Translations under genes and position numbers: made by a program
Notes under the pieces: generated by a model
What the model was told of the DNA's origin: nothing
Database searches by the model: none
Seen by the model: the letters and a program-made list of their open reading frames with translations, nothing else
Origin: Maribacter zhoushanensis
GTDB lineage: Bacteria > Bacteroidota > Bacteroidia > Flavobacteriales > Flavobacteriaceae
NCBI RefSeq assembly: GCF_029350975.1
Contig: NZ_JARKMR010000001.1
Coordinates: 1,364,001 to 1,428,000, forward strand
Length of the DNA: 64,000 nucleotides
Reading direction: 5' to 3'
Shown: in pieces, positions 8,965 through 64,000 of the stretch
Position numbering within the stretch: the first letter of the stretch is position 1
Layout of the letters: every line of letters begins with the position of its first letter

Positions 8965-9225
8965 TTAAGAAAGTTTAGTGTTGTTCATTTTAGTTGAGAA
9001 TTTTAAAGCTTTGATAACTCTGTTGTTTTTGTTCTTGTATAATCTAGCAACCTCAATTGTGTTTTTAGTTTCAATTGTAGGAACAACGATATCATTACTT
9101 TCAATTGTCTGAACCATCTCTACTTGTGCAGTTTCGATCTCTACAGAAACATTCTCATTGTTAGCTTGTGCCTGAGCGAAGAAACATGTGAAGATAAGAG
9201 CGGTTAAAAGAATAATTGATTTCAT
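8965..9225 (-). CDS. Small secreted protein, duplicated (copy 1)
   Basis: This 86-residue protein has a clear signal peptide (MKSIILLTALIFTCFFAQAQ, cleavage probably after AQA). The mature part of about 66 residues has an acidic first half and a very basic second half (ARLYKNKNNRVIKALKFSTK). It is identical to the 9593-9853 product at 80 of 86 positions. The charge split could suit binding to a polymer or surface, but I do not recognise the family. Its promoter carries the two-part direct-repeat operator also found before the response regulator at 58473. Confidence 0.7.
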   Translation of the reverse strand: MKSIILLTALIFTCFFAQAQANNENVSVEIETAQVEMVQTIESNDIVVPTIETKNTIEVARLYKNKNNRVIKALKFSTKMNNTKLS

Positions 9226-9592
9226 AATATTTGTTTTACACTGCTAAAGTACAGGTAAGGTCAAACATATTTGAGCACTAGTCGGTGGGCGTCATTTAAC
9301 TGTAGACGAATGGTAAATAGGTTTCGGTTTTTAAAATGAGATAAGATGAAAAATTAATTAGATTCGGAATCCGGTAGGTAGCTCAATAACCGTAAGTATT
9401 GGTGTTGACAGCTTTAGTTAAAGTGATAAGCTAGCTATTGATAGCATGTGGGTTATAGGGTTGAATAGTTTTTTGAATTGAATTTGACTTTTGAGTTTGT
9501 ATTTGATTCCTGAACTTGAACTTAAAAAGTAGGTAATGGTAAGAAAGTGGGGTAGGTAAGATGTGGGGCGAAAAGGGAATTGAATTATTGTA
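9226..9592. other. Non-coding gap between the duplicated peptide genes
   Basis: The right-hand end of this stretch relative to copy 1 (9226-9316) is its promoter and operator. The middle (about 9320-9470) is unduplicated spacer with no ORF. The part near 9475-9592 is the 3' flank of copy 2. I see no RNA gene. Confidence 0.5.
9244..9316 (-). promoter_or_regulatory. Activator-type promoter with 21-bp direct-repeat operator (peptide copy 1)
   Basis: Reading the minus strand, half-site CCATTCGTCTAC, 9 nt, and half-site ACGCCCACCGAC (spanning 9313 down to 9281) form a direct repeat with a 21-bp period. Exactly 29 nt later comes a -7 candidate TACTTTAG (9251-9244). A -33 box is lacking. The same half-sites, period and 29-nt spacing occur at 58383-58452. 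Confidence 0.55.
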
Positions 9593-9853
9593 TTAAGAAA
9601 GTTTAGCGCTGTTCATTTTAGTTGAGAATTTTAAAGCTTTGATTACTCTGTTGTTTTTGTTCTTGTATAATCTAGCAACTTCGATTGTGTTTTTAGTTTC
9701 AATTGTTGGAACAATAATATCATTACTTTCAATTGACTGAACCATCTCTACTTGTGCAGTTTCTATTTTTACAGAAACATTCTCATTGTTAGCTTGTGCC
9801 TGAGCGAAGAAACATGTGAAGAAAAGAGCGGTTAAAAGAATAATTGATTTCAT
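9593..9853 (-). CDS. Small secreted protein, duplicated (copy 2)
   Basis: This protein has 86 residues. It differs from copy 1 at six positions (residues 11, 29, 40, 47, 82 and 83). All are substitutions and the frame is intact. The signal peptide and basic C-terminal segment are preserved. Both copies keep their promoters, so a dosage benefit is possible. No family is recognised. Confidence 0.7.
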   Translation of the reverse strand: MKSIILLTALFFTCFFAQAQANNENVSVKIETAQVEMVQSIESNDIIVPTIETKNTIEVARLYKNKNNRVIKALKFSTKMNSAKLS

Positions 9854-9871: not shown

Positions 9872-9944
9872 CTAAAGTACAGGCAAGACCAAACATATTT
9901 TGTCGCTCGTCGTTGGGCGTCATTTAACTATAGACGAATGGTAA
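9872..9944 (-). promoter_or_regulatory. Activator-type promoter with 21-bp direct-repeat operator (peptide copy 2)
   Basis: This is the copy 2 equivalent of 9244-9316. The direct-repeat operator spans 9909-9941 with one change in the distal half-site. A -7 candidate TACTTTAG lies at 9879-9872, again 29 nt away. Confidence 0.5.
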
Positions 9945-54478: not shown

Positions 54479-56056
54479 ATGATCAGCGGTACAAATGCAA
54501 TAGGCACTAAGTCTTCTAAGCAAGGAAATACAATTTTTAAAACGTTTAACCCAAAAGAAAATAGAGATACGGAGTGGACATTCTATGAAGCATCTTCTAA
54601 CGAAATTGATGAAGCTGTTGAATTGGCAACAGATGCTTTTAAAACATATAAAGATTTTTCAGGTATCAAAAAAGCAGCTTTCCTAGAGGCTATTGCAAAT
54701 GAGATAGAAGCTTTAGGTGATGAGTTGATCAATACGTATTGTGAAGAATCTGGTCTGCCCGAAGGTAGGGCAAGAGGTGAGCGTGGTCGTACCATGGGGC
54801 AATTACGTGCTTTTGCAAATGTATTAAGAGAAGGTTCTTGGGTAGAGGCTGTTATTGAAAAAGCACAACCTAATAGGGAACCTATGCCAAAATCAGATAT
54901 TAGAAAAATGCTATTTCCTTTGGGTCCGGTAGTGGTTTTTGGGGCAAGTAACTTCCCTCTAGCCTTTTCGACAGCCGGTGGCGATACCGCTAGCGCTCTT
55001 GCAGCAGGTTGCCCTGTGATTGTTAAAAGTCACCCAATGCACGCAGGTACTGGCGAGCTGGTATCTTCTGCTATTACTAAGGCAGCTGAGAAAACAAATA
55101 TGCCCAATGGTGTGTTTTCAAATTTGAACAGTAGTGGTATAGAAGTAGGTCAGCAGTTGGTAAAGCATCCAAAAGTAAAAGCAGTTGGCTTTACGGGCAG
55201 TATCAAAGGTGGTACGGCATTGTATAAATTGGCAAATGAAAGAGATGAACCTATTCCTGTTTTTGCAGAAATGGGGAGTATAAACCCTGTAGTGGTGTTA
55301 CCGTCAGCTTTAGAAAATGATGCTGATGCTTGGGCAACTAAATATGCATCTTCAATAACTTTGGGCGCTGGTCAGTTTTGCACCAACCCAGGTTTAGTGA
55401 TGGCCGTTAAAGGAGATAAATTAGATGGTTTCATCAATACGTTATCAAAAGAATTATTAAAATTAGAGCCTACTTGCATGCTTCACCCTAATATTTATGC
55501 AAAATATAATGAAGGTAAAAAAGAATTGTCTACACAAAGCGGAGTGACGATTACTGCCGATTATACGGAGGATACTAACGCTAATACCGCAAAACCAGCT
55601 ATCTTAAAAGTAAGTGGTGCAGATTTTTTAGCGAATACAAAATTACACACCGAGGTTTTTGGACCTTTTTCCGTTGTGGTTGAATGTGAGAATATGAGTG
55701 AATTAGAAACTATCTTAAATGGTTTAGAAGGTCAGTTAACCGGTACTATTTTGGGTTCTGAACAAGATTTAGAGAATAATTCAGGACTTGTAGATGCATT
55801 AAAAAGTAGAGTAGGGCGTATATTGTTCAATGGTGTGCCAACTGGCGTAGAGGTAAATTCTTCTATGGTTCATGGTGGTCCGTTCCCCGCTACTACAGAC
55901 CCCCGTTTTACATCTGTTGGTACATCGGCTATAAAAAGATGGGTCCGTCCTGTTTCTTTTCAAGACTGGCCTAATAAATTATTACCAAAGGCTTTACAAA
56001 ATGAAAACCCTCTTAACATTACCCGATTGGTAGAAGGCGAGTACACCAAAAACTGA
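54479..56056 (+). CDS. 2-oxoglutarate semialdehyde dehydrogenase (NADP-dependent ALDH)
   Basis: The 525-residue aldehyde dehydrogenase has the catalytic Cys301 in GAGQFCTNPG and Glu264 in FAEMGSINP. The cofactor-binding region is FGASNFPLAFSTAGGDTASA. The length and the N-terminal extension match the ketoglutarate semialdehyde dehydrogenase class of pentose and hydroxyproline routes. It would make 2-oxoglutarate, the end product that enters the TCA cycle. A gap of 116 bp with a -7-like box separates it from the deaminase gene. Confidence 0.88.
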   Translation: MISGTNAIGTKSSKQGNTIFKTFNPKENRDTEWTFYEASSNEIDEAVELATDAFKTYKDFSGIKKAAFLEAIANEIEALGDELINTYCEESGLPEGRARGERGRTMGQLRAFANVLREGSWVEAVIEKAQPNREPMPKSDIRKMLFPLGPVVVFGASNFPLAFSTAGGDTASALAAGCPVIVKSHPMHAGTGELVSSAITKAAEKTNMPNGVFSNLNSSGIEVGQQLVKHPKVKAVGFTGSIKGGTALYKLANERDEPIPVFAEMGSINPVVVLPSALENDADAWATKYASSITLGAGQFCTNPGLVMAVKGDKLDGFINTLSKELLKLEPTCMLHPNIYAKYNEGKKELSTQSGVTITADYTEDTNANTAKPAILKVSGADFLANTKLHTEVFGPFSVVVECENMSELETILNGLEGQLTGTILGSEQDLENNSGLVDALKSRVGRILFNGVPTGVEVNSSMVHGGPFPATTDPRFTSVGTSAIKRWVRPVSFQDWPNKLLPKALQNENPLNITRLVEGEYTKN

Positions 56057-56077
56057 AACAAATAATATCCTATTAAT

Positions 56078-57085
56078 ATGGCCAGTAGCACTTTTGTTTG
56101 TATTGACGCCCATACTTGTGGCAATCCTGTTAGGGTTATAAAACAGGGTGGTCCAGATTTAATTGGTGCTACAATGAGTGAAAAACGTCAGCATTTTCTG
56201 AAAGAATATGATTGGATAAGAAAGGGATTGATGTTTGAACCACGAGGTCATGACATGATGAGTGGTAGCATTTTTTATCCGCCTAACGACCCAAACAATG
56301 ACTTCGGTATTTTATTTATTGAGACCAGCGGATGTCTACCTATGTGCGGACACGGAACAATTGGAGCCATTACTATTGGGATTGAAGAAGGGTTGATACA
56401 TCCAAAAATACCAGGTAAAGTCCGTATGGAAACTCCCGCGGGCTTGGTAGATATTACTTATCAACAAACAGGTAAAAAAGTAGATTGGGTAAAATTGACT
56501 AATGTAAAGGCTTATCTAGCAGCTTCAGATTTAACAATTGATTCTAAGGCTTTAGGTGAGCTGACTTTTGATGTATCCTACGGTGGAAATTTTTATGCCA
56601 TCATTGATACACAGAAAAATTTTAGCGGTATACAAGATTATACTGCAAATGAGCTTATTCAATTCAGTCAAGAAATTCGGGAGAAAATCAATTATAAATA
56701 CCCGGATATGTTTATTCATCCAGAAGATGCAACCATCAAAAATGTGAGTCATATTTTGTGGACTGGGAAAACAATTTCTGAAACGGCTACTGCTAGAAAT
56801 GCCGTTTTTTATGGTGATAAGGGAATAGACCGTTCACCATGTGGTACAGGTACATCTGCCCGTATGGCGCAATGGCATGCTAAAGGGAAATTAAAAGTGG
56901 GCGAAGATTTTATCCATGAAAGTTATATAGGTTCTCAGTTTATAGGCAGAATAGAAGAAGAAACCTCTTTATCAGGCAAGACTGCAGTTATACCCAGTAT
57001 AAAGGGATGGGCAAAGATATACGGTCAAAATTCCATAACCATAGATGATGATGATCCCTACGCGCATGGGTTTCAGGTAATTTAA
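56078..57085 (+). CDS. 4-hydroxyproline 2-epimerase (proline racemase family)
   Basis: The 335-residue protein converts trans-4-hydroxy-L-proline to cis-4-hydroxy-D-proline, the first step of the route. Both catalytic cysteines are present: Cys90 (GCLPMCGHGTIG) and Cys255 (DRSPCGTGTSARMA). Dehydratase members of the family have replaced the second cysteine, so an epimerase is favoured. The gene lies 21 bp after the dehydrogenase gene and 16 bp before the FAD gene. Confidence 0.92.
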   Translation: MASSTFVCIDAHTCGNPVRVIKQGGPDLIGATMSEKRQHFLKEYDWIRKGLMFEPRGHDMMSGSIFYPPNDPNNDFGILFIETSGCLPMCGHGTIGAITIGIEEGLIHPKIPGKVRMETPAGLVDITYQQTGKKVDWVKLTNVKAYLAASDLTIDSKALGELTFDVSYGGNFYAIIDTQKNFSGIQDYTANELIQFSQEIREKINYKYPDMFIHPEDATIKNVSHILWTGKTISETATARNAVFYGDKGIDRSPCGTGTSARMAQWHAKGKLKVGEDFIHESYIGSQFIGRIEEETSLSGKTAVIPSIKGWAKIYGQNSITIDDDDPYAHGFQVI

Positions 57086-57101
57086 TATTAATACTGGTAA
57101 G

Positions 57102-58349
57102 ATGAAAAGTGTTTTGGTTATTGGTGGTGGTATTGTTGGTCTAAGTACAGCTTATTATTTAGAGAAAGAAGGTTTTGACGTAACGGTAGTGGATAAAGGG
57201 GATATTACTTCTGGCGCATCTTTTGTTAATGCTGGCTATATAACCCCAAGTCACATTATACCACTGGCATCACCTGGCATGATCGCTAAAGGAATTAAAA
57301 TGATGTTCAATTCTGCTAGCCCTTTTTACATGAAACCCAGATTAGATGTGGATTTCTTAAAGTGGTCTTGGTATTTTCATAAGTCTTCTACTCTTGCAAA
57401 AGTTGAAAAGGCAATACCGGTAATTAAAGAGATTAACCTAATAAGTAGGGAGTTGTTTACGGATATAAAAAACTCTGGAGATTTGGGCGATTTTCAGCTA
57501 GAACGCAAAGGTCTTTTAATGCTTTATAAAACCGATGCAACCTATTTACATGAAAAACAAGTTGCAGAAAGAGTAGCTTTTGAGGGGTTAGAGGTATCAG
57601 ATTTAAGCAAAGCAGAGCTACAAAAGTTAGAGCCTAACGTAAATATAGATGCCGAAGGGGCTATTCATTATGAATGTGATGGCCATACAACACCCACTGA
57701 AATAATGCCGAAGCTATTGGCTTATTTAAAGAAACAAGGGGTGCAAATAAAAACGAAAGAAGAGGTTCTGGATATTAAAACTAGCGGACATAAAATTACC
57801 GAGGTTATTACAACTAAGGATAGTTATAAACCAGATGAAGTTGTTTTGGCAGCAGGTTCGTGGAGCGGAGAGCTTGCCAAAAAATTGCAATTAAAATTAC
57901 CATTACAGGGAGGTAAAGGATATCGTATTAATGTGGAACGTGATACCGGAATTACAATACCGGCTATATTAATGGAATCTAAAATGGCGGTTACGCCTAT
58001 GAACGGTTTTACAAGATTTGCCGGTACTATGGAGTTTTCGGGTAATAACAGTATTGTTAGAAATGAGCGTGTAATGGCAATTGCCAATGGAGCCCATTCC
58101 TTTTATCCAGATTTAAGAATTACCGAAACTGAGATAAAGAATGTAAAAACAGGATTAAGACCTGTCTCACCAGATGGGCTACCGTACATAGGTAAATCAA
58201 CGAAAATCAAGAATTTAACCATAGGTACTGGCCACGCAATGATGGGGTGGAGTTTAGGGCCTGCTACAGGTAAACTGATTACCGAGTTATTGTCTGATAA
58301 TAAGACATCTATGGGGTTAGAAGCCTTTGGTCCTGAACGTAGTTTTTAA
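57102..58349 (+). CDS. FAD-dependent D-amino acid dehydrogenase, probable cis-4-hydroxy-D-proline dehydrogenase
   Basis: The 415-residue DadA/DAO-family protein starts with VIGGGIVGLSTAYYLEKEGF and VVDKGDITSGAS. The C-terminal FAD segment is GLRPVSPDGLPYIGKS, followed by TGHAMMGWSLGPATGK. With the epimerase next door, the likely substrate is cis-4-hydroxy-D-proline, oxidised to pyrroline-4-hydroxy-2-carboxylate. It is a single-chain type rather than the three-subunit enzyme of Pseudomonas. No hydroxyproline transporter is seen nearby. Confidence 0.88.
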   Translation: MKSVLVIGGGIVGLSTAYYLEKEGFDVTVVDKGDITSGASFVNAGYITPSHIIPLASPGMIAKGIKMMFNSASPFYMKPRLDVDFLKWSWYFHKSSTLAKVEKAIPVIKEINLISRELFTDIKNSGDLGDFQLERKGLLMLYKTDATYLHEKQVAERVAFEGLEVSDLSKAELQKLEPNVNIDAEGAIHYECDGHTTPTEIMPKLLAYLKKQGVQIKTKEEVLDIKTSGHKITEVITTKDSYKPDEVVLAAGSWSGELAKKLQLKLPLQGGKGYRINVERDTGITIPAILMESKMAVTPMNGFTRFAGTMEFSGNNSIVRNERVMAIANGAHSFYPDLRITETEIKNVKTGLRPVSPDGLPYIGKSTKIKNLTIGTGHAMMGWSLGPATGKLITELLSDNKTSMGLEAFGPERSF

Positions 58350-58382: not shown

Positions 58383-58452
58383 CCATTCACCGACACTAAA
58401 TTGCCACCCGTCTACACTGGTCAAAAAATTTGTAACTTATCCCTCATCTTTG
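58383..58452 (+). promoter_or_regulatory. Activator-type promoter with 21-bp direct-repeat operator (response regulator)
   Basis: Half-site CCATTCACCGAC (58383-58394), 9 nt, and half-site CCACCCGTCTAC (58404-58415) form a direct repeat with a 21-bp period. After 29 nt comes a -7 candidate CATCTTTG (58445-58452). Half-sites, period and 29-nt spacing match the two secreted-peptide promoters at 9244-9316 and 9872-9944. Confidence 0.6.
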
Positions 58453-58472: not shown

Positions 58473-58874
58473 ATGGACATCCTACTTATAGAAGACGATT
58501 TAATAGAAGTAATGAAGTTGAAACGTACAGTTTCTAAACTGAATTTGAAGCATAACATAATAGAAGCTAAAAATGGGGAATCTGCATTAACCCATCTAAG
58601 GTCAGGTGAAAAATTACCAGATATTATTCTGTTAGATTTGAATATGCCTAGAATGAACGGTATAGAATTTCTTACTATTTTAAAAGAAGATGATCGCTTA
58701 AGATATTTGCCAACAGTTATTTTAACCACATCTGAAAATAGAGCAGATTTATTAAAATGTTATGAAGTTGGTATTGCCGGTTATGTAATCAAACCATTAA
58801 AATATGAAGATTACGAATACAAATTAAATGCTGTTTTAGAGTACTGGACCGTTAACCAACTAGTAAAAGGCTAA
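58473..58874 (+). CDS. Single-domain response regulator (Rcp1-like)
   Basis: The 133 residues form one receiver domain with no output domain. The phosphoacceptor is Asp55 (ILLDLNMPRMNG), the acidic pair is in LIEDDL, and the signalling Thr/Lys are in ILTTSE and VIKPLKYEDY. Such CheY/Rcp1-type proteins act as phosphate shuttles. It sits just upstream of the H-NOX/kinase operon on the same strand, with a separate promoter before each. It may therefore be the shuttle or sink for those kinases. Confidence 0.9.
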   Translation: MDILLIEDDLIEVMKLKRTVSKLNLKHNIIEAKNGESALTHLRSGEKLPDIILLDLNMPRMNGIEFLTILKEDDRLRYLPTVILTTSENRADLLKCYEVGIAGYVIKPLKYEDYEYKLNAVLEYWTVNQLVKG

Positions 58875-58924
58875 CAAAAAAGCTCATTTCACAACATTTT
58901 TCAGATTATCTGTATTAAATTTCC

Positions 58925-58932
58925 TACGTTTG
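58925..58932 (+). promoter_or_regulatory. Candidate -7 box of the H-NOX/kinase operon
   Basis: TACGTTTG matches TAnnTTTG and ends 21 bp before the H-NOX ATG. No good -33 box is seen. It implies that the operon can be transcribed separately from the response regulator gene. Confidence 0.5.
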
Positions 58933-58953
58933 AATATGTTATAAAAAATTCAA

Positions 58954-59496
58954 ATGAAAGGAATAGTATTTACCGAGTTTTTAGAAATGGTCGAATCTGA
59001 ATTCGGATTAGAGACCGTTGATAATATTATTGAAAAATCAGATTTGCCATCTCAAGGCATATATACATCTGTTGCCACCTATGAATTTAACGAAATGGTG
59101 GCATTGATCACCCAGTTAAGTGAAGAGGTAGATTTACCCGCCGGTGATTTAATCTATGCATTTGGACTATATTTATTTTCTAGCCTAAAAAATGCACACC
59201 CAGAGGTTATTCAAAGTTATAGATCCCCCATTGGTCTTTTATATTCTATAGAAGATCATATTCATGTACATGTAAAGAAACTTTATCCAGAAGCGGAGTT
59301 GCCTACATTTAAGATTCTTGAAAAAACAGATAATTCTATATCAATGATATATTCTTCTACTAGAGGATTATACAGATTAGCTCATGGTCTTATAGAAAAA
59401 GCTTTTGAGCATTTTAATGGAAAAGCCGATATAACTTACGAACTTCTTAAAGAAGATGGTACAGAGGTTAAATTTGACGTTGTACAGCATGGATAG
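58954..59496 (+). CDS. H-NOX domain heme sensor protein
   Basis: The stand-alone 180-residue H-NOX (HNOB) protein should bind heme and sense nitric oxide. Key residues are intact. The proximal histidine is His104 in the HxxVxKLYP pattern (HVHVKKLYP), and the heme-propionate motif YxSxR is Tyr133-Ser135-Arg137 (YSSTR). The length matches bacterial stand-alone H-NOX proteins that regulate a partner kinase. Its last codons overlap the start of the PAS kinase gene by 8 bp, which fits a sensor-kinase pair. No distal-pocket tyrosine can be judged from sequence alone, so NO is favoured over O2 by analogy only. Confidence 0.92.
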   Translation: MKGIVFTEFLEMVESEFGLETVDNIIEKSDLPSQGIYTSVATYEFNEMVALITQLSEEVDLPAGDLIYAFGLYLFSSLKNAHPEVIQSYRSPIGLLYSIEDHIHVHVKKLYPEAELPTFKILEKTDNSISMIYSSTRGLYRLAHGLIEKAFEHFNGKADITYELLKEDGTEVKFDVVQHG

Positions 59497-61465
59497 TAAA
59501 GAAGTTACTCTTCTTAAAAAAGCCCTAGAAAGGCAAAAAATGGCTCGCCAACAAGCCGAAAGAATATTAGAGGAAAAATCTAATGAGCTTTATGAAGAGG
59601 CACGTCATCTGCGGGAATCTAATAATAAACTTGAAAATTTATTAAGTGAAAAAACCTCTGAGCTAGATGGTGTTTTTATTAATATTATAGATCCTTACGT
59701 AGTTATGGACTTATCATTTAACGTGGTAAGTATGAACCAATCTGCAAAAAACTTCTTAGGGTTTGATAACAATAAAGAAGAAATCAACCTTTGGAAATTG
59801 GTACACAAAGATTTTATGGAGTATACCATAGAATCTTTTAGTAGTTTAAAAGAGGTTGGTTTATTAAAAAATTATAGGGCTAAAATATTTATAAAAGGTG
59901 GCGAAGAAAAATGGGTTGAAATAAACGCCAGTTTAATTTTTAATAAAGAAAAACAACCAATTGCCGCACAGGGAATTGTTAGGGATATAACTCAAGAAAT
60001 GGAAGTTAGAGAGTTATTGTCAGAACAAAAGCGCCAATTAGATATTATAGTTAACAGTTCTCCCTTAGGTATTATTCTAGTTGATGTCAATAAAATTATC
60101 AAGGTCAATTATTCCATGACCTCTTTGTTAGGATATTCCTATGATGAGTTTATGAAAATGAAGGTTAAAGATTTCACTGATGCCGAAAGCTTAAACGAAG
60201 CCGATAAATTACAGCATAAACTCAATAAAGGTGAAATTGATAAATATACCATTCACCAAAAGTTTCTAAAAAATAACGGCGAAACGTTACAAGTAAAGCT
60301 GTCAGTAAGTGCAGTACGTAATATTTACAAAGAAATCAGCTACATGGTAATGATGGTTGAAGATATTACCAAACAGTTAGAAGCTGAAGAGCGTTTAAAG
60401 ACTGAAAGAGAAAAGTATAGTGGTATAATAGCCAATATGAATCTTGGGTTGTTAGAATCTGACAGAGATGGTATAATTCAAATGGTCAATCAGAGTTTCT
60501 GTGATATGATCGGTTATGAAGAAAGTGAATTGCTTGGCACAAACGCTAAACATTTTGTAAGTCTTGAAGATAGAGATAAGGTTTCTGACCACATTAAAAC
60601 CCGTGCAAATGGTAAATCAGACTCATATGACGTTCATGTTGTTACTAAAACAGGAGAAACAAGGCATTGGTTAGTAAGTGTAGCACCTCTTTTCAACAAT
60701 GACCATGAGGTAATAGGCTCTATTGGTATAACATTAGATATTACCGAACAGAAAAAATTAGAACTGCAAAAAGAACAATTGGTTAAAGATCTTGAAAACA
60801 GTAACCAAGGGCTACAAGAATATGCTCATATTGTTTCGCATGATCTAAAATCGCCATTAAGAAGTATAAGTGCTTTGGCAACTTGGTTAAGCGATGATTA
60901 TAAAGATGTTTTAGATGAAGGTGGTAAACAGAATCTTGAGCTTATGCAAGAGAAAGTTGCTTCAATGGATAAGTTAATTCATGGTATTCTAGAATATTCT
61001 ACGGCCAACAGTTCTGCCTTAGATGATTCTAAAGTAGATTTAAACGGTGTTATTTCAGATATTGGAGAGACAATTTTTATTCCTGAACATGTAAAATTGG
61101 TGGTTCCTAGAACACTACCTACTATTATGGCAGACAGAATAAAAGTACATCAAGTTTTTCAAAATATTATTGGTAACGCCGTAGTTCATATTGAAAGAAA
61201 GGCTGGTCTTGTAGAGGTATTATATAAAGACGATGGTGAATTTTGGCAATTTACAATTAGCGACAATGGGGTAGGTATACCAGAAGAATATCATAAAAAG
61301 ATTTTTGAAATATTTCAATCTATAGGAAATAACGAAAGATCTACAGGTATAGGGCTATCAATAGTCAAGAAAATTATAGATCGCTACCAAGGTAGGGTAT
61401 GGATCGATAGTGTAGTTGGTGAAGGAACCCAATTTCATTTTACAATAAAAAAAGACCATAACTAA
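59489..61465 (+). CDS. Soluble multi-PAS sensor histidine kinase
   Basis: The 658-residue cytosolic kinase has a short N-terminal coiled coil (about 5-60), three PAS domains (about 65-180, 190-300 and 315-430), and HisKA with His451 (IVSHDLKSPLR). The HATPase_c domain has N-box NIIGNAVVH, G1 box DNGVGIPEEYHKKIFEIF and G2 box STGIGLSIVKKI. The ATG at 59489 is preferred over 59456 because it starts just before the coiled coil and gives the usual short overlap with H-NOX. It probably takes input from H-NOX and has additional PAS inputs. No receiver domain is attached, so it needs separate regulators. Confidence 0.9.
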   Translation: MDSKEVTLLKKALERQKMARQQAERILEEKSNELYEEARHLRESNNKLENLLSEKTSELDGVFINIIDPYVVMDLSFNVVSMNQSAKNFLGFDNNKEEINLWKLVHKDFMEYTIESFSSLKEVGLLKNYRAKIFIKGGEEKWVEINASLIFNKEKQPIAAQGIVRDITQEMEVRELLSEQKRQLDIIVNSSPLGIILVDVNKIIKVNYSMTSLLGYSYDEFMKMKVKDFTDAESLNEADKLQHKLNKGEIDKYTIHQKFLKNNGETLQVKLSVSAVRNIYKEISYMVMMVEDITKQLEAEERLKTEREKYSGIIANMNLGLLESDRDGIIQMVNQSFCDMIGYEESELLGTNAKHFVSLEDRDKVSDHIKTRANGKSDSYDVHVVTKTGETRHWLVSVAPLFNNDHEVIGSIGITLDITEQKKLELQKEQLVKDLENSNQGLQEYAHIVSHDLKSPLRSISALATWLSDDYKDVLDEGGKQNLELMQEKVASMDKLIHGILEYSTANSSALDDSKVDLNGVISDIGETIFIPEHVKLVVPRTLPTIMADRIKVHQVFQNIIGNAVVHIERKAGLVEVLYKDDGEFWQFTISDNGVGIPEEYHKKIFEIFQSIGNNERSTGIGLSIVKKIIDRYQGRVWIDSVVGEGTQFHFTIKKDHN

Positions 61466-61476
61466 TACAACAATAG

Positions 61477-62607
61477 ATGAAAACCGTACAAGCAATTAAA
61501 AAACCAAATGAGTCTTTTGTTCTGCAAAATTCTGTTCAATTAAATGAACCTTTGGTATTAGTTTTTGGTAATAGATATATGCTAGAGAGTGATCAAATTT
61601 ATGATGAGGTTAGGGCTTTGTTTCCTAATGGTCATATTGTATTTGGTACAACGTCTGGTGAAATTATAGATGATAAAGTTTTGGACGGTACCGTTGTTTT
61701 AACGGCTATAGAGTTTGAAAAAAGTTCGGTATTAGTTAAAAGAAGCAATGTAGATGACTTTAATAATGATGATGAAAAGTTGGGCGAGAGTCTAATAGCA
61801 GAATTTCCAAAAGAGAATCTTAAACATTTGTTCGTCATATCTGAAGGCAGTACTGTAAACGGTAGCGCCCTAATAGAAGGTCTTGAACAAATAAAAAATA
61901 CGACCTATGGTTTATCTGGCGGTCTCTGTGGAGATGATGATCGTTTTGAACGAACCTTGGCATCATACAACGAAAACCCTAAAGAAGGCGAAATTATAGC
62001 TATTGGTTTTTATGGGGATACCTTAGAAATTACAAGCTCTAATTATGGCGGGTGGACCAATTTTGGACCAGAAAGAATTATTACAAAATCTAACGGAAAT
62101 ATTCTTCATGAACTAGATGGTAAACCAGCATTGGATCTTTACAAAACGTATTTAGGTGAAAAAGCTAAAGAATTGCCTAAATCAGCATTGCTTTATCCTT
62201 TAAGTGTAAAAGCCACTGAAGATGCAGAACCTCTGGTACGTACTATTTTAAATATAGATGAAAAGGATAACACTATGATTCTTGCAGGTGATGTGCCTGA
62301 GGGGTCTAGGGTGCAATTAATGATGTCATCTGTAGATGATATAGCAAATGGTGCTTTTCATGCAGCAGAGCTAGCTATGAACGGTAGAAAGAAGGATCCA
62401 GAATTAGCATTGTTGATTAGCTGTATTGGTAGAAAACTGGTAATGGACCAACGTACCGAAGAAGAAATAGAAGAGGTAAAGGCTGTAATTGGCAATAATA
62501 CGGTTATAAGCGGGTTTTATTCTTACGGTGAAATGGCTCCGTTCAGTGGTCAAGATAGTTGTAAGTTACATAACCAGACTATGACACTAACTTTATTTAG
62601 CGAATAA
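61477..62607 (+). CDS. FIST domain sensor protein (NosP class candidate)
   Basis: The 376-residue protein has a FIST N domain (about 25-215; LVFGNRYMLESD, FGTTSGEIID, GLSGGLCGDDDRF). The FIST_C domain (about 225-370) includes LLISCIGRKLVM, SGFYSYGEMAPF and CKLHNQTMTL. In Pseudomonas and others, FIST proteins named NosP bind heme and NO and regulate a co-encoded kinase. Here it lies between two kinases, 11 bp after the first and overlapping the second by one base. Heme binding is an analogy; small-molecule binding is the alternative. Confidence 0.88.
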   Translation: MKTVQAIKKPNESFVLQNSVQLNEPLVLVFGNRYMLESDQIYDEVRALFPNGHIVFGTTSGEIIDDKVLDGTVVLTAIEFEKSSVLVKRSNVDDFNNDDEKLGESLIAEFPKENLKHLFVISEGSTVNGSALIEGLEQIKNTTYGLSGGLCGDDDRFERTLASYNENPKEGEIIAIGFYGDTLEITSSNYGGWTNFGPERIITKSNGNILHELDGKPALDLYKTYLGEKAKELPKSALLYPLSVKATEDAEPLVRTILNIDEKDNTMILAGDVPEGSRVQLMMSSVDDIANGAFHAAELAMNGRKKDPELALLISCIGRKLVMDQRTEEEIEEVKAVIGNNTVISGFYSYGEMAPFSGQDSCKLHNQTMTLTLFSE

Positions 62608-63671
62608 TGCATTCCCTTTTAAAAAGACAAATAAGAAAATATTTACCTGCCGATTTAGAATCGCATCCAGAAATGGAACACTTTTTAGAGGCAATAGAAA
62701 AATCATATGAAAATTATGATGATAAATTTTCTATGCTGCATAGAGCTTCCACAATAAGTTCAGATGAACTGTTTGAAGCAAATAAGAAACTACAGAACGA
62801 AGCTAAACAGCAGAAAAAGATTCTGGTTTCATTAGAAGATGCCATTCGTAGTTTAACAGATAATCTTAATGAAGATCAATTATTTGGTCAGAATATTGAA
62901 GATGAATTTAATGCAGAGCAGCTAGCGATCAATATTAGTAACTTGGCATCACAGGTATCTGAAATGTCTGTAGAAAAAGATAAGTTACTACGAAGTTTAG
63001 AAATCCAGAACCAGTCACTAAACAATTATGCGCAAATGGTGTCGCATGATTTAAGGTCGCCGATAAGAAATATTAGCGCATTAATGGATTGGATATCTGA
63101 GGATGAAAAAAAGAATTTTTCAGATAGCAGTAAAGAGAACTGCAAATTGGTTTCTGAGAATCTTGCTAAAATGGATAAACTTGTTACCGGTATTTTAAGC
63201 CATGCCACTATGGGTGAAACCAAAGAGCAACGTGTTACATTTCAATTAGAGGAAAGTTTAAGAGATATAGAAAAAACCATTTTTGTTCCGGAAAACGTAA
63301 CTTTTGAATATGCGGAAAATTTGCCGGAAATGGCATTTGAAAGGGCAAGGTTAGAACAATTGTTCATGAACTTGTTTTTAAATGCTATAACCGCTACTGA
63401 GCATATAGAAAACGGAGTTATTAAAATTGGGTATGAACCAGATGATGAATATTGGAAATTTAGTGTTTCCGATAATGGAAAAGGGATACCTGCAAAACAC
63501 CAGCAAGGTATATTTCAAATGTTCAAAAAACTAGAAACAACCAATAATGCCACAGGTATAGGGCTTGCGATTGTAAAGAAAATTACGGTACTTTATGAAG
63601 GTTCTGTTTGGTTAGATTCTGAAGAGAATGTAGGCACTACATTTTTTATAACTTTAAAGAAGAATTTATGA
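62607..63671 (+). CDS. Soluble sensor histidine kinase with coiled-coil input
   Basis: The 354-residue kinase has no membrane segment or PAS domain. The helical N-terminal 130 residues, largely coiled coil, lead to HisKA with His147 (MVSHDLRSPIRN) and HATPase_c (NLFLNAITATE, DNGKGIPAKHQQGIFQMF, ATGIGLAIVKKI). Its catalytic part resembles the upstream PAS kinase, suggesting duplication. The lack of its own sensor and the TAATG overlap with the FIST gene suggest that the FIST protein regulates it. Overlap with the Hpt gene by four bases continues the coupling. Confidence 0.88.
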   Translation: MHSLLKRQIRKYLPADLESHPEMEHFLEAIEKSYENYDDKFSMLHRASTISSDELFEANKKLQNEAKQQKKILVSLEDAIRSLTDNLNEDQLFGQNIEDEFNAEQLAINISNLASQVSEMSVEKDKLLRSLEIQNQSLNNYAQMVSHDLRSPIRNISALMDWISEDEKKNFSDSSKENCKLVSENLAKMDKLVTGILSHATMGETKEQRVTFQLEESLRDIEKTIFVPENVTFEYAENLPEMAFERARLEQLFMNLFLNAITATEHIENGVIKIGYEPDDEYWKFSVSDNGKGIPAKHQQGIFQMFKKLETTNNATGIGLAIVKKITVLYEGSVWLDSEENVGTTFFITLKKNL

Positions 63672-63988
63672 TAGAGCAACCAAACCTTAATTATGTAGAT
63701 GAGCTTGCGGGAGATGATGTTGAGTTTAGAGGTCAATTTATAGATATTATAAAGAATGAATTTCCTTTAGAGAAAGAAGAGTATTTTGGTCATGTTAATA
63801 ATACAAGAACCAAAGAGGCTGCCGAGATGGTTCATAAACTAAAACATAAATTCAATATTTTAGGGATGGAGAATTCTTATAAGCTAGCGGTAGCTTATGA
63901 AATGGAATTATTGGACGGAAAGCACGATAGTCAATCTAAATTCGTTGAAGTATTGGATACTATTGAAGAATACATTAAAACAATCTAA
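63668..63988 (+). CDS. Histidine phosphotransfer (Hpt) protein
   Basis: The 106-residue all-helical protein carries an Hpt motif around His56 (MVHKLKHKFNILGM), the phospho-receiving histidine of phosphorelays. No kinase or receiver is fused to it. Its ATG overlaps the kinase stop (ATGA). It would pass phosphate between receiver domains, so a relay of kinase, receiver, Hpt and output regulator is likely. The small receiver at 58473 and the gene starting at 63989 are natural partners. Confidence 0.88.
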   Translation: MIEQPNLNYVDELAGDDVEFRGQFIDIIKNEFPLEKEEYFGHVNNTRTKEAAEMVHKLKHKFNILGMENSYKLAVAYEMELLDGKHDSQSKFVEVLDTIEEYIKTI

Positions 63989-64000
63989 ATGAACTGTATT
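63989..64000 (+). CDS. Start of a further gene cut by the window edge (possible response regulator)
   Basis: Immediately after the Hpt stop an ATG opens a frame reading MNCI before the sequence ends. Many response regulators start with MNCI or MKCI followed by a di-acidic DDE. The position behind an Hpt gene would suit one, but four residues cannot prove it. Confidence 0.3.

Follow-up and report, generated by a model that had tools for sequence, protein, structure and literature searches.

The window analyzed here, a stretch of 64,000 nucleotides from Maribacter zhoushanensis (Flavobacteriaceae; contig NZ_JARKMR010000001.1 of assembly GCF_029350975.1), ends within an operon of seven forward-strand genes that we consider a candidate phosphorelay, arranged in the order REC0, H-NOX, HK1, FIST, HK2, Hpt and LytTR. 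REC0 (58473-58874, +) encodes a single-domain receiver of 133 amino acids (Pfam Response_reg, 73 bits), the proposed first phosphate acceptor. It is followed by the 180-residue H-NOX (58954-59496, +; Pfam HNOB, 134 bits with a cut-off of 25.5), likely a heme sensor of nitric oxide (NO), and by HK1 (59456-61465, +), a cytosolic PAS histidine kinase of 669 residues with three PAS_9 stretches, HisKA (35.8 bits) and HATPase_c (85.8 bits). The next two genes form a cassette: FIST (61477-62607, +), a putative sensor of 376 residues with the domains FIST and FIST_C (142 and 124 bits), and HK2 (62607-63671, +), a histidine kinase of 354 residues without PAS domain (HATPase_c, 77 bits; HisKA, 18 bits and below the cut-off). 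Hpt (63668-63988, +), a phosphotransfer protein of 106 residues with H56 as the likely phospho-histidine, precedes LytTR, which starts immediately after the Hpt stop codon (63989-64000, +) and extends 699 bp beyond the end of the window (L002:7989-8699). In front of the operon lies a paired direct-repeat box (58383-58416, +), two 13-bp copies with a period of 21 bp, which we propose as the binding site of LytTR. The preliminary description of this DNA had named six of the genes, and all six are present where it placed them, on the forward strand. The gene that it saw cut at the edge turned out, when the sequence beyond 64000 was added, to be a response regulator of 236 residues (LytTR, 68 bits; Response_reg, 66 bits). 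Its account of several genes packed with overlaps of 1-8 bp also agrees with our reading, the 8-bp overlap of H-NOX and HK1 being obtained if HK1 starts at the in-frame methionine at 59489.

We analyzed the conservation of this operon in a family sample of 299 genomes, of which 105 contain H-NOX and 87 contain FIST. A FIST gene was found within 6 kb and on the same strand for 58 of the 109 H-NOX matches (downstream in 57 of the 58), which exceeds chance. The earlier statement that the two sensors usually occupy separate loci is thus untrue for Flavobacteriaceae, where a rare pairing is not supported. In fact, the accessible part of PMC8738867 already shows FIST in the neighbourhood of one group of H-NOX sequences, and PMC7108781, on which that paper builds, illustrates this group in its accessible part with Cellulophaga and Runella. 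We then compared 107 loci, namely 106 fetched H-NOX loci and our own, leaving the weak or partial matches G112 and G076:C2 out of the 109. All seven genes are present in 52 loci, exactly five, without FIST and HK2, in 38, and the remaining 17 deviate (three stop at Hpt, four have only REC0, H-NOX and a kinase, and the others are short, cut or odd). With median intergenic gaps of -4 to 9 bp, the genes are not scattered in the related genomes, as a proposed synteny search might have found. Moreover, among 80 named loci, selected as the best of 132 for a close FIST, the seven-gene order was recognized in 71 by script and in three more by eye, and two others have the seven genes plus an extra gene or cassette. 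The last four are L218 and L248, which are short of sequence, L261, where no Hpt was detected, and L255 of Saccharicrinis aurantiacus, which has only kinase-FIST-kinase. In the latter (L255:6093-10174), a PAS kinase, a FIST gene whose product is 60% identical to our own and a second kinase stand together, with no H-NOX, REC0, Hpt or LytTR nearby; this is apparently a relocated part of the operon.

The conserved residues of the relay proteins are those of a phosphorelay. REC0 precedes H-NOX in 102 of the 107 loci, and its D8, D9, D55, T85 and K107 are conserved in at least 93% of the 102 family members. The identity of Hpt is supported by its helical-bundle fold and its invariant H56, though its Pfam Hpt score of 14.9 bits is under the cut-off of 24.6. 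Its predicted structure has a mean predicted local distance difference test score (pLDDT) of 95, and the best Protein Data Bank matches are solved Hpt domains (3myf, probability 1.00, TM 0.75) in a fold search that gave no match with an E-value of 0.001 or less; H56, K57 and K61 are invariant in 60 aligned members. No receiver or Hpt domain was found in HK1 or HK2 by Pfam. Kinase, receiver, Hpt and second receiver are thus all present with their acceptor residues, and the His-Asp-His-Asp set is complete. Four loci from other families (L175, L176, L179 and L180) encode, after H-NOX, a single chain of PAS-HisKA-HATPase_c-Response_reg-Hpt, and in L180 a LytTR regulator follows the fused kinase with a 4-bp overlap. 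Because our kinases have no receiver and the fused relatives are ordered kinase-REC-Hpt, REC0 is the likelier point of convergence, and Hpt as direct acceptor from both kinases is less likely than REC0 first. The earlier idea of two sensor-kinase pairs converging on Hpt therefore stands in one part, that two cytosolic pairs share one operon and one relay, and is displaced in the other, the meeting point being more probably REC0. The phosphate path is likely kinase to REC to Hpt to LytTR.

We read the operon, with a probability of roughly 0.6, as a split multi-input phosphorelay with LytTR as output and FIST-HK2 as an optional cassette. H-NOX, likely upon binding NO, would set the activity of HK1, and FIST would set that of HK2. 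Both kinases would phosphorylate the free REC0, from which the phosphate would pass to the free Hpt and on to LytTR. LytTR would then bind the 21-bp direct repeats at its own operon, a feedback, and also those before neighbouring polysaccharide genes and secreted-protein genes. The sequences themselves show which genes are present and in what order, that the cassette is optional, that the phosphorelay residues are conserved, and how the box is distributed; NO binding, the flow of phosphate, the binding of LytTR to the box, the direction of the response and an output on exopolysaccharide we infer.

On the side of the first input, alignment with the solved H-NOX 6ocv gives H104 as the proximal histidine, and H104, Y133, S135 and R137 are each conserved in at least 93% of the 107 family H-NOX proteins. 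His104 and the YxSxR motif (Y133, S135 and R137) are hence intact, as the preliminary description had said. The closest solved relative is 6bde (204 bits), and H-NOX likely senses NO via heme. HK1 varies in length among relatives, with clusters near 400, at 530-575, 650-705 and 780-835 residues; these are spaced by about 125-130 residues, one PAS domain per step. The H-NOX-to-FIST distances likewise fall into clusters, near 1350, 1730, 2116 and 2500 bp.

The closest kinase of HK2 in its own genome is HK1 (197 bits, and 100 for the next; 32 matches including HK2 itself). Comparison of HK1 with its neighbour HK2 in each of 53 loci gave an identity of 61% for the phospho-acceptor helix, the best conserved part, 47% for the ATPase part and 35% for the second helix. 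These results speak for shared docking of the two kinases. In a kinase tree, which gave long-branch warnings and includes only 15 of the genome's 28 remaining kinases, the cores of HK1 and HK2 form two groups separate from other kinases, with few exceptions. The N-terminus of HK2 recurs (E 5e-7) on an Azospirillum PAS kinase that adjoins a same-type FIST gene, and it has no match to the kinase beside an annotated NosP. This likeness supports the pairing of FIST with HK2, which had rested on gene order, and sets this FIST type apart from NosP.

As an alternative, the operon could hold two largely separate two-component branches, HK1 with REC0 and HK2 with Hpt or an unlinked receiver, the cassette being a hitchhiker. 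The cassette is absent from 38 loci with an otherwise full core, so HK2 is dispensable for the relay, and between HK2 and HK1 the second DHp helix, a further determinant of partner choice, is just 35% identical. We nevertheless hold this arrangement to be unlikely. Of the 57 FIST loci in which a following kinase was seen, 56 have the cassette in the same slot between HK1 and Hpt, and HK1 and HK2 are mutual nearest cores. In G506 and G544 (genus g127), HK2 is followed by a third kinase, which has a GAF domain in one genome and a hydrophobic N-terminus in the other and shares both the slot and the core group. Moreover, FIST distances correlate with core-gene distances (r 0.73-0.82, Mantel 0/999 permutations, 49 loci), which fits long joint inheritance.

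FIST-HK2 thus appears to be an input cassette that is optional but fixed in position, since 52 loci have seven genes and 38 have five. The slot also holds variants. G267 and G118 have a different FIST type, without H365 and C362, together with a kinase of different N-terminus, the core being retained; the first ~150 residues of these kinases differ and have no Pfam match, and their cores share 36.8-48% identity with that of HK1 or HK2. Aquimarina acroporae has two consecutive FIST-kinase cassettes, the divergent pair and the usual pair, and G057 has an HK2-type kinase in an operon without FIST. On the core tree (FastTree, 91 loci), presence of the cassette takes 17 changes, at least 10 of them forced by starred branches, and the shuffled mean is 29.6. 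Old presence with many losses is the better fit, because FIST distances follow the core genes while presence takes 17 changes; the cassette would mostly be inherited and often lost, with the limit that the change counts do not separate gain from loss. Repeated horizontal gain as its main mode was rejected, as the divergence of FIST parallels that of the core genes. As REC and Hpt each stand alone as a protein, the relay could admit a new kinase, provided that its phosphorylation-site helix fits. This suggests an open input port: after REC and Hpt split off the H-NOX kinase, sensor-kinase pairs with the right helix would have become insertable between HK1 and Hpt, and lineages would add, drop and swap inputs to an NO-responsive LytTR circuit for surface polysaccharide. 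The inputs would be FIST type B, FIST type A, a GAF kinase and a membrane kinase. We regard the chances of this reading as about even.

The ligand of FIST bears on whether the operon is a true dual NO sensor, in which FIST would be a NosP-like heme sensor of other affinity, as first suggested. Heme- or NO-binding proteins with FIST and FIST_C domains are described in the accessible parts of PMC12570481 and PMC8846402, and our protein has both domains. Its predicted structure (pLDDT 92) has the FIST of FBXO22 as best fold match (probability 1.00), although phmmer gave no FIST match among solved structures. Three residues, H365, C316 and C362, are the same in all 54 typical FISTs of the family, and a heme ligand may be among them. 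However, the NosP equivalog model NF041558 (NCBIfam) gives only 53.2 bits with a cut-off of 450. Identity to four annotated Azospirillum NosPs is 22.5-23.6%, and to another Azospirillum FIST it is 39-41%, while the best named relatives are from Maribacter species, at 87-91%. The invariant C-terminal motif is CxLHNQTM, as opposed to MHVNQTF in the two annotated NosPs aligned, and the FISTs of the swapped cassettes have F or Y at the position of H365 and L at that of C362. On score, low identity and motif together we reject FIST as a member of NosP, and its role as a second NO or heme sensor is not supported. A dual NO sensor is rather doubtful, whereas NO plus another ligand, also raised in the preliminary description, may apply to the two sensors. 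No heme ligand of FIST was found in the literature searched.

At the output end, a box ACCATTCGTCKACA lies upstream of REC0 and is often doubled at 21 bp; the pair in our operon has no mismatch to CCRYYCRYCKACA-N8-CCRYYCRYCKACA. At least one copy with up to 3 mismatches is present before REC0 in 89 of the 107 loci, compared with 11 of 107 after shuffling, and the pairs upstream of REC0 number 48 at 21 bp and 5 at 22 bp. Random windows of the same loci contain a single box in 226 of 2099 and 30 pairs at 21 bp, the latter because such windows may have included parts of true upstream regions or further genuine sites. With up to 2 mismatches, the paired box has 104 matches in 73 of the 299 family genomes (reversed control, 2), and it occurs in 66 of the 105 genomes with H-NOX but in 7 of the 194 without. 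As many as 79 of the 104 lie within 30 kb of H-NOX on the same contig, all 79 on the H-NOX strand, and 47 directly precede REC0. In the 4.26-Mb genome of our strain, 4 paired boxes with up to 3 mismatches were found (reversed pattern, 0), preceding REC0, a gene for a small secreted-looking protein (window 9280-9313), a flippase and a glycosyltransferase gene.

The same threshold in 22 genomes, a set that includes G073 and G128 (no H-NOX match and no paired box), gave 49 paired boxes and 2 for the controls. By hand, 20 of them were assigned to REC0 or REC0-like genes, 14 to polysaccharide genes and 8 to genes of secreted-looking proteins; the sites include polysaccharide genes 8-25 kb away and secreted-protein genes on another contig. 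In the named loci, a pair precedes REC0 in 57 of the 74 with a placed REC0 (reversed pattern, 0), and 29 further pairs lie at REC0 (4), flippase, glycosyltransferase or STAS-like genes (13), genes of secreted-looking proteins (6) and sites without assigned gene (6). In G227, G011 and G172, the operon has neither LytTR nor box, and the LytTR gene is located at another site, where it follows a REC0-like gene that is itself preceded by a box; its product is 73-75% identical to our own and scores 376-384 bits, with at most 149 for the next regulator. The box thus accompanies the LytTR gene and not H-NOX; the three look related, so this is possibly a single event.

The boxes fit a predicted LytTR regulon, for which direct repeats with a period of about 21 bp before target genes are expected. 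Published LytTR sites are 9-bp repeats with a 12-bp spacer in the accessible part of PMC6193735, a spacing equal to the period of our box. Moreover, its core CCATTCGTC differs by one base from the AlgR core CCGTTCGTC as given in the accessible part of PMC4064291. We propose that LytTR binds the box before its own operon and its target genes.

Several observations weigh against the relay and regulon proposed here. The boxes of our own genome at the flippase and the glycosyltransferase have 3 mismatches each. At the thresholds used, 18 of the 107 loci have no single box and 39 of the 105 H-NOX genomes no paired box, and 7 of the 49 pairs read by hand have no clear target gene. Fisher's p of 2e-30 for box against H-NOX presence is too small a figure, because the genomes of a family are not independent. 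Within the window, the HK1 and HK2 helices agree in 19 of 36 positions. This is only somewhat more than the best value for another kinase, 16 to HK1 and 12 to HK2, among the 14 of 28 other genome kinases that were comparable. Beyond the family, a draw of 395 genomes from the phylum included 27 with H-NOX, and just one (G448) of the 12 of these outside the family has the seven-gene operon.

The output might instead be mainly cyclic di-GMP (c-di-GMP) or motility, the link of box and polysaccharide being a by-product of neighbourhood. Known H-NOX and NosP pathways do mostly act on c-di-GMP according to the accessible part of PMC8738867, and the polysaccharide cluster simply adjoins the operon in Maribacter. 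We find this quite improbable, as no GGDEF or EAL protein is encoded in the operon, which encodes a DNA-binding regulator instead, and the boxes stand directly before polysaccharide genes, including the distant ones, and before secreted-protein genes on another contig.

The proposed phosphorelay can be compared with several known systems. In the Spo0 phosphorelay of Bacillus, kinases, Spo0F, Spo0B and Spo0A are encoded by unlinked genes, and Spo0B is not an Hpt. It likewise has a free single-domain receiver, a free phosphotransferase, a free DNA-binding regulator and several kinase inputs, but these inputs are not sensor-kinase cassettes within a relay operon. The LuxU relay of Vibrio (H-NOX/HqsK and NosP/VpsS), as far as the accessible part of PMC6769237 describes it, also has cytosolic kinases without own sensor domain controlled by a separate H-NOX or NosP, and several kinases meet there at one free Hpt, LuxU, and one regulator. 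Each Vibrio kinase is a hybrid that includes a receiver, the inputs are scattered in the genome and the regulator is LuxO, whereas our operon has kinases without receiver, a free REC, inputs in one slot of one operon and a LytTR regulator. The NosP-NosK-NosR and NosP-NahK operons (accessible parts of PMC12570481 and PMC8846402) similarly place a FIST gene beside the kinase that it controls. FIST-HK2 differs in a FIST outside the range of the NosP model, in a kinase N-terminus unlike that of the NahK-type kinase compared and in the LytTR output. HnoX-HnoK of Shewanella and Vibrio also has H-NOX directly before a cytosolic histidine kinase and, in the accessible part of PMC8738867, acts on c-di-GMP enzymes, while our path would lead to a LytTR regulator and DNA boxes. 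With the sites of AlgR and LytTR (accessible parts of PMC4064291 and PMC6193735), our box shares the core one base from CCGTTCGTC, direct repeats at the 21-bp period and, as proposed, autoregulation and a link to exopolysaccharide; it is longer (ACCATTCGTCKACA), and the input would be a phosphorelay from gas-sensor kinases.

What appears new here is the organization of an H-NOX system as a split phosphorelay whose second input is optional and exchangeable and whose predicted regulon is that of LytTR. No description of the relay, cassette or box of this operon was recognized in the literature searched, from which subscription papers were mostly out of reach; two of the papers found contain both H-NOX and LytTR. 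With our reading, a list of candidate NO sensors becomes a testable circuit with proposed inputs, relay and DNA target in a large marine bacterial family. The natural series of loci with no, one, swapped or two cassettes or a third kinase is a ready experiment on gaining inputs without cross-talk, and the box offers a promoter readout. We predict that in Flavobacteriaceae associated with algae and particles surface polysaccharide is under the control of NO, a subject on which no study was found in the literature searched.

As for other features, the window contains a second paired box (9280-9313, -; 2 mismatches), 55 bp before a gene for a small secreted-looking protein of 86 residues (8965-9225, -). 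A tandem duplicate of this gene (9593-9853, -) is preceded by a single box (9929-9941, -; 1 mismatch), and a similar-looking tandem pair, open reading frames of 99 residues with boxes, is present in G108 (L308). Directly after LytTR and convergent with it, a receiver and a Cache-type membrane kinase are encoded on the opposite strand (L002:8717-10921, -), as is also the case in G075 and G286 of the same genus. Then a polysaccharide-type cluster follows (L002:11186-19998), comprising a TPR outer-membrane-like protein (BCSC_C, 18.8 bits and below the cut-off), two flippases, two glycosyltransferases and a receiver-glycosyltransferase fusion, with boxes before the first flippase and the first glycosyltransferase; the box coordinates in this region are L002:13358-13391 and L002:14872-14905. 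The genes before the operon (54479-58349), which we named by eye as presumably aldehyde dehydrogenase, proline-racemase-like and amino-acid-oxidase-like, are probably unrelated to it. In L244 (11294-11944), LytTR is followed by a gene with a STAS domain and by a second member of the Hpt family (130 bits). Two to four FIST genes stand in tandem in ten genomes with no H-NOX match (G037, G038, G042, G054, G069, G078, G101, G225, G247 and G261).

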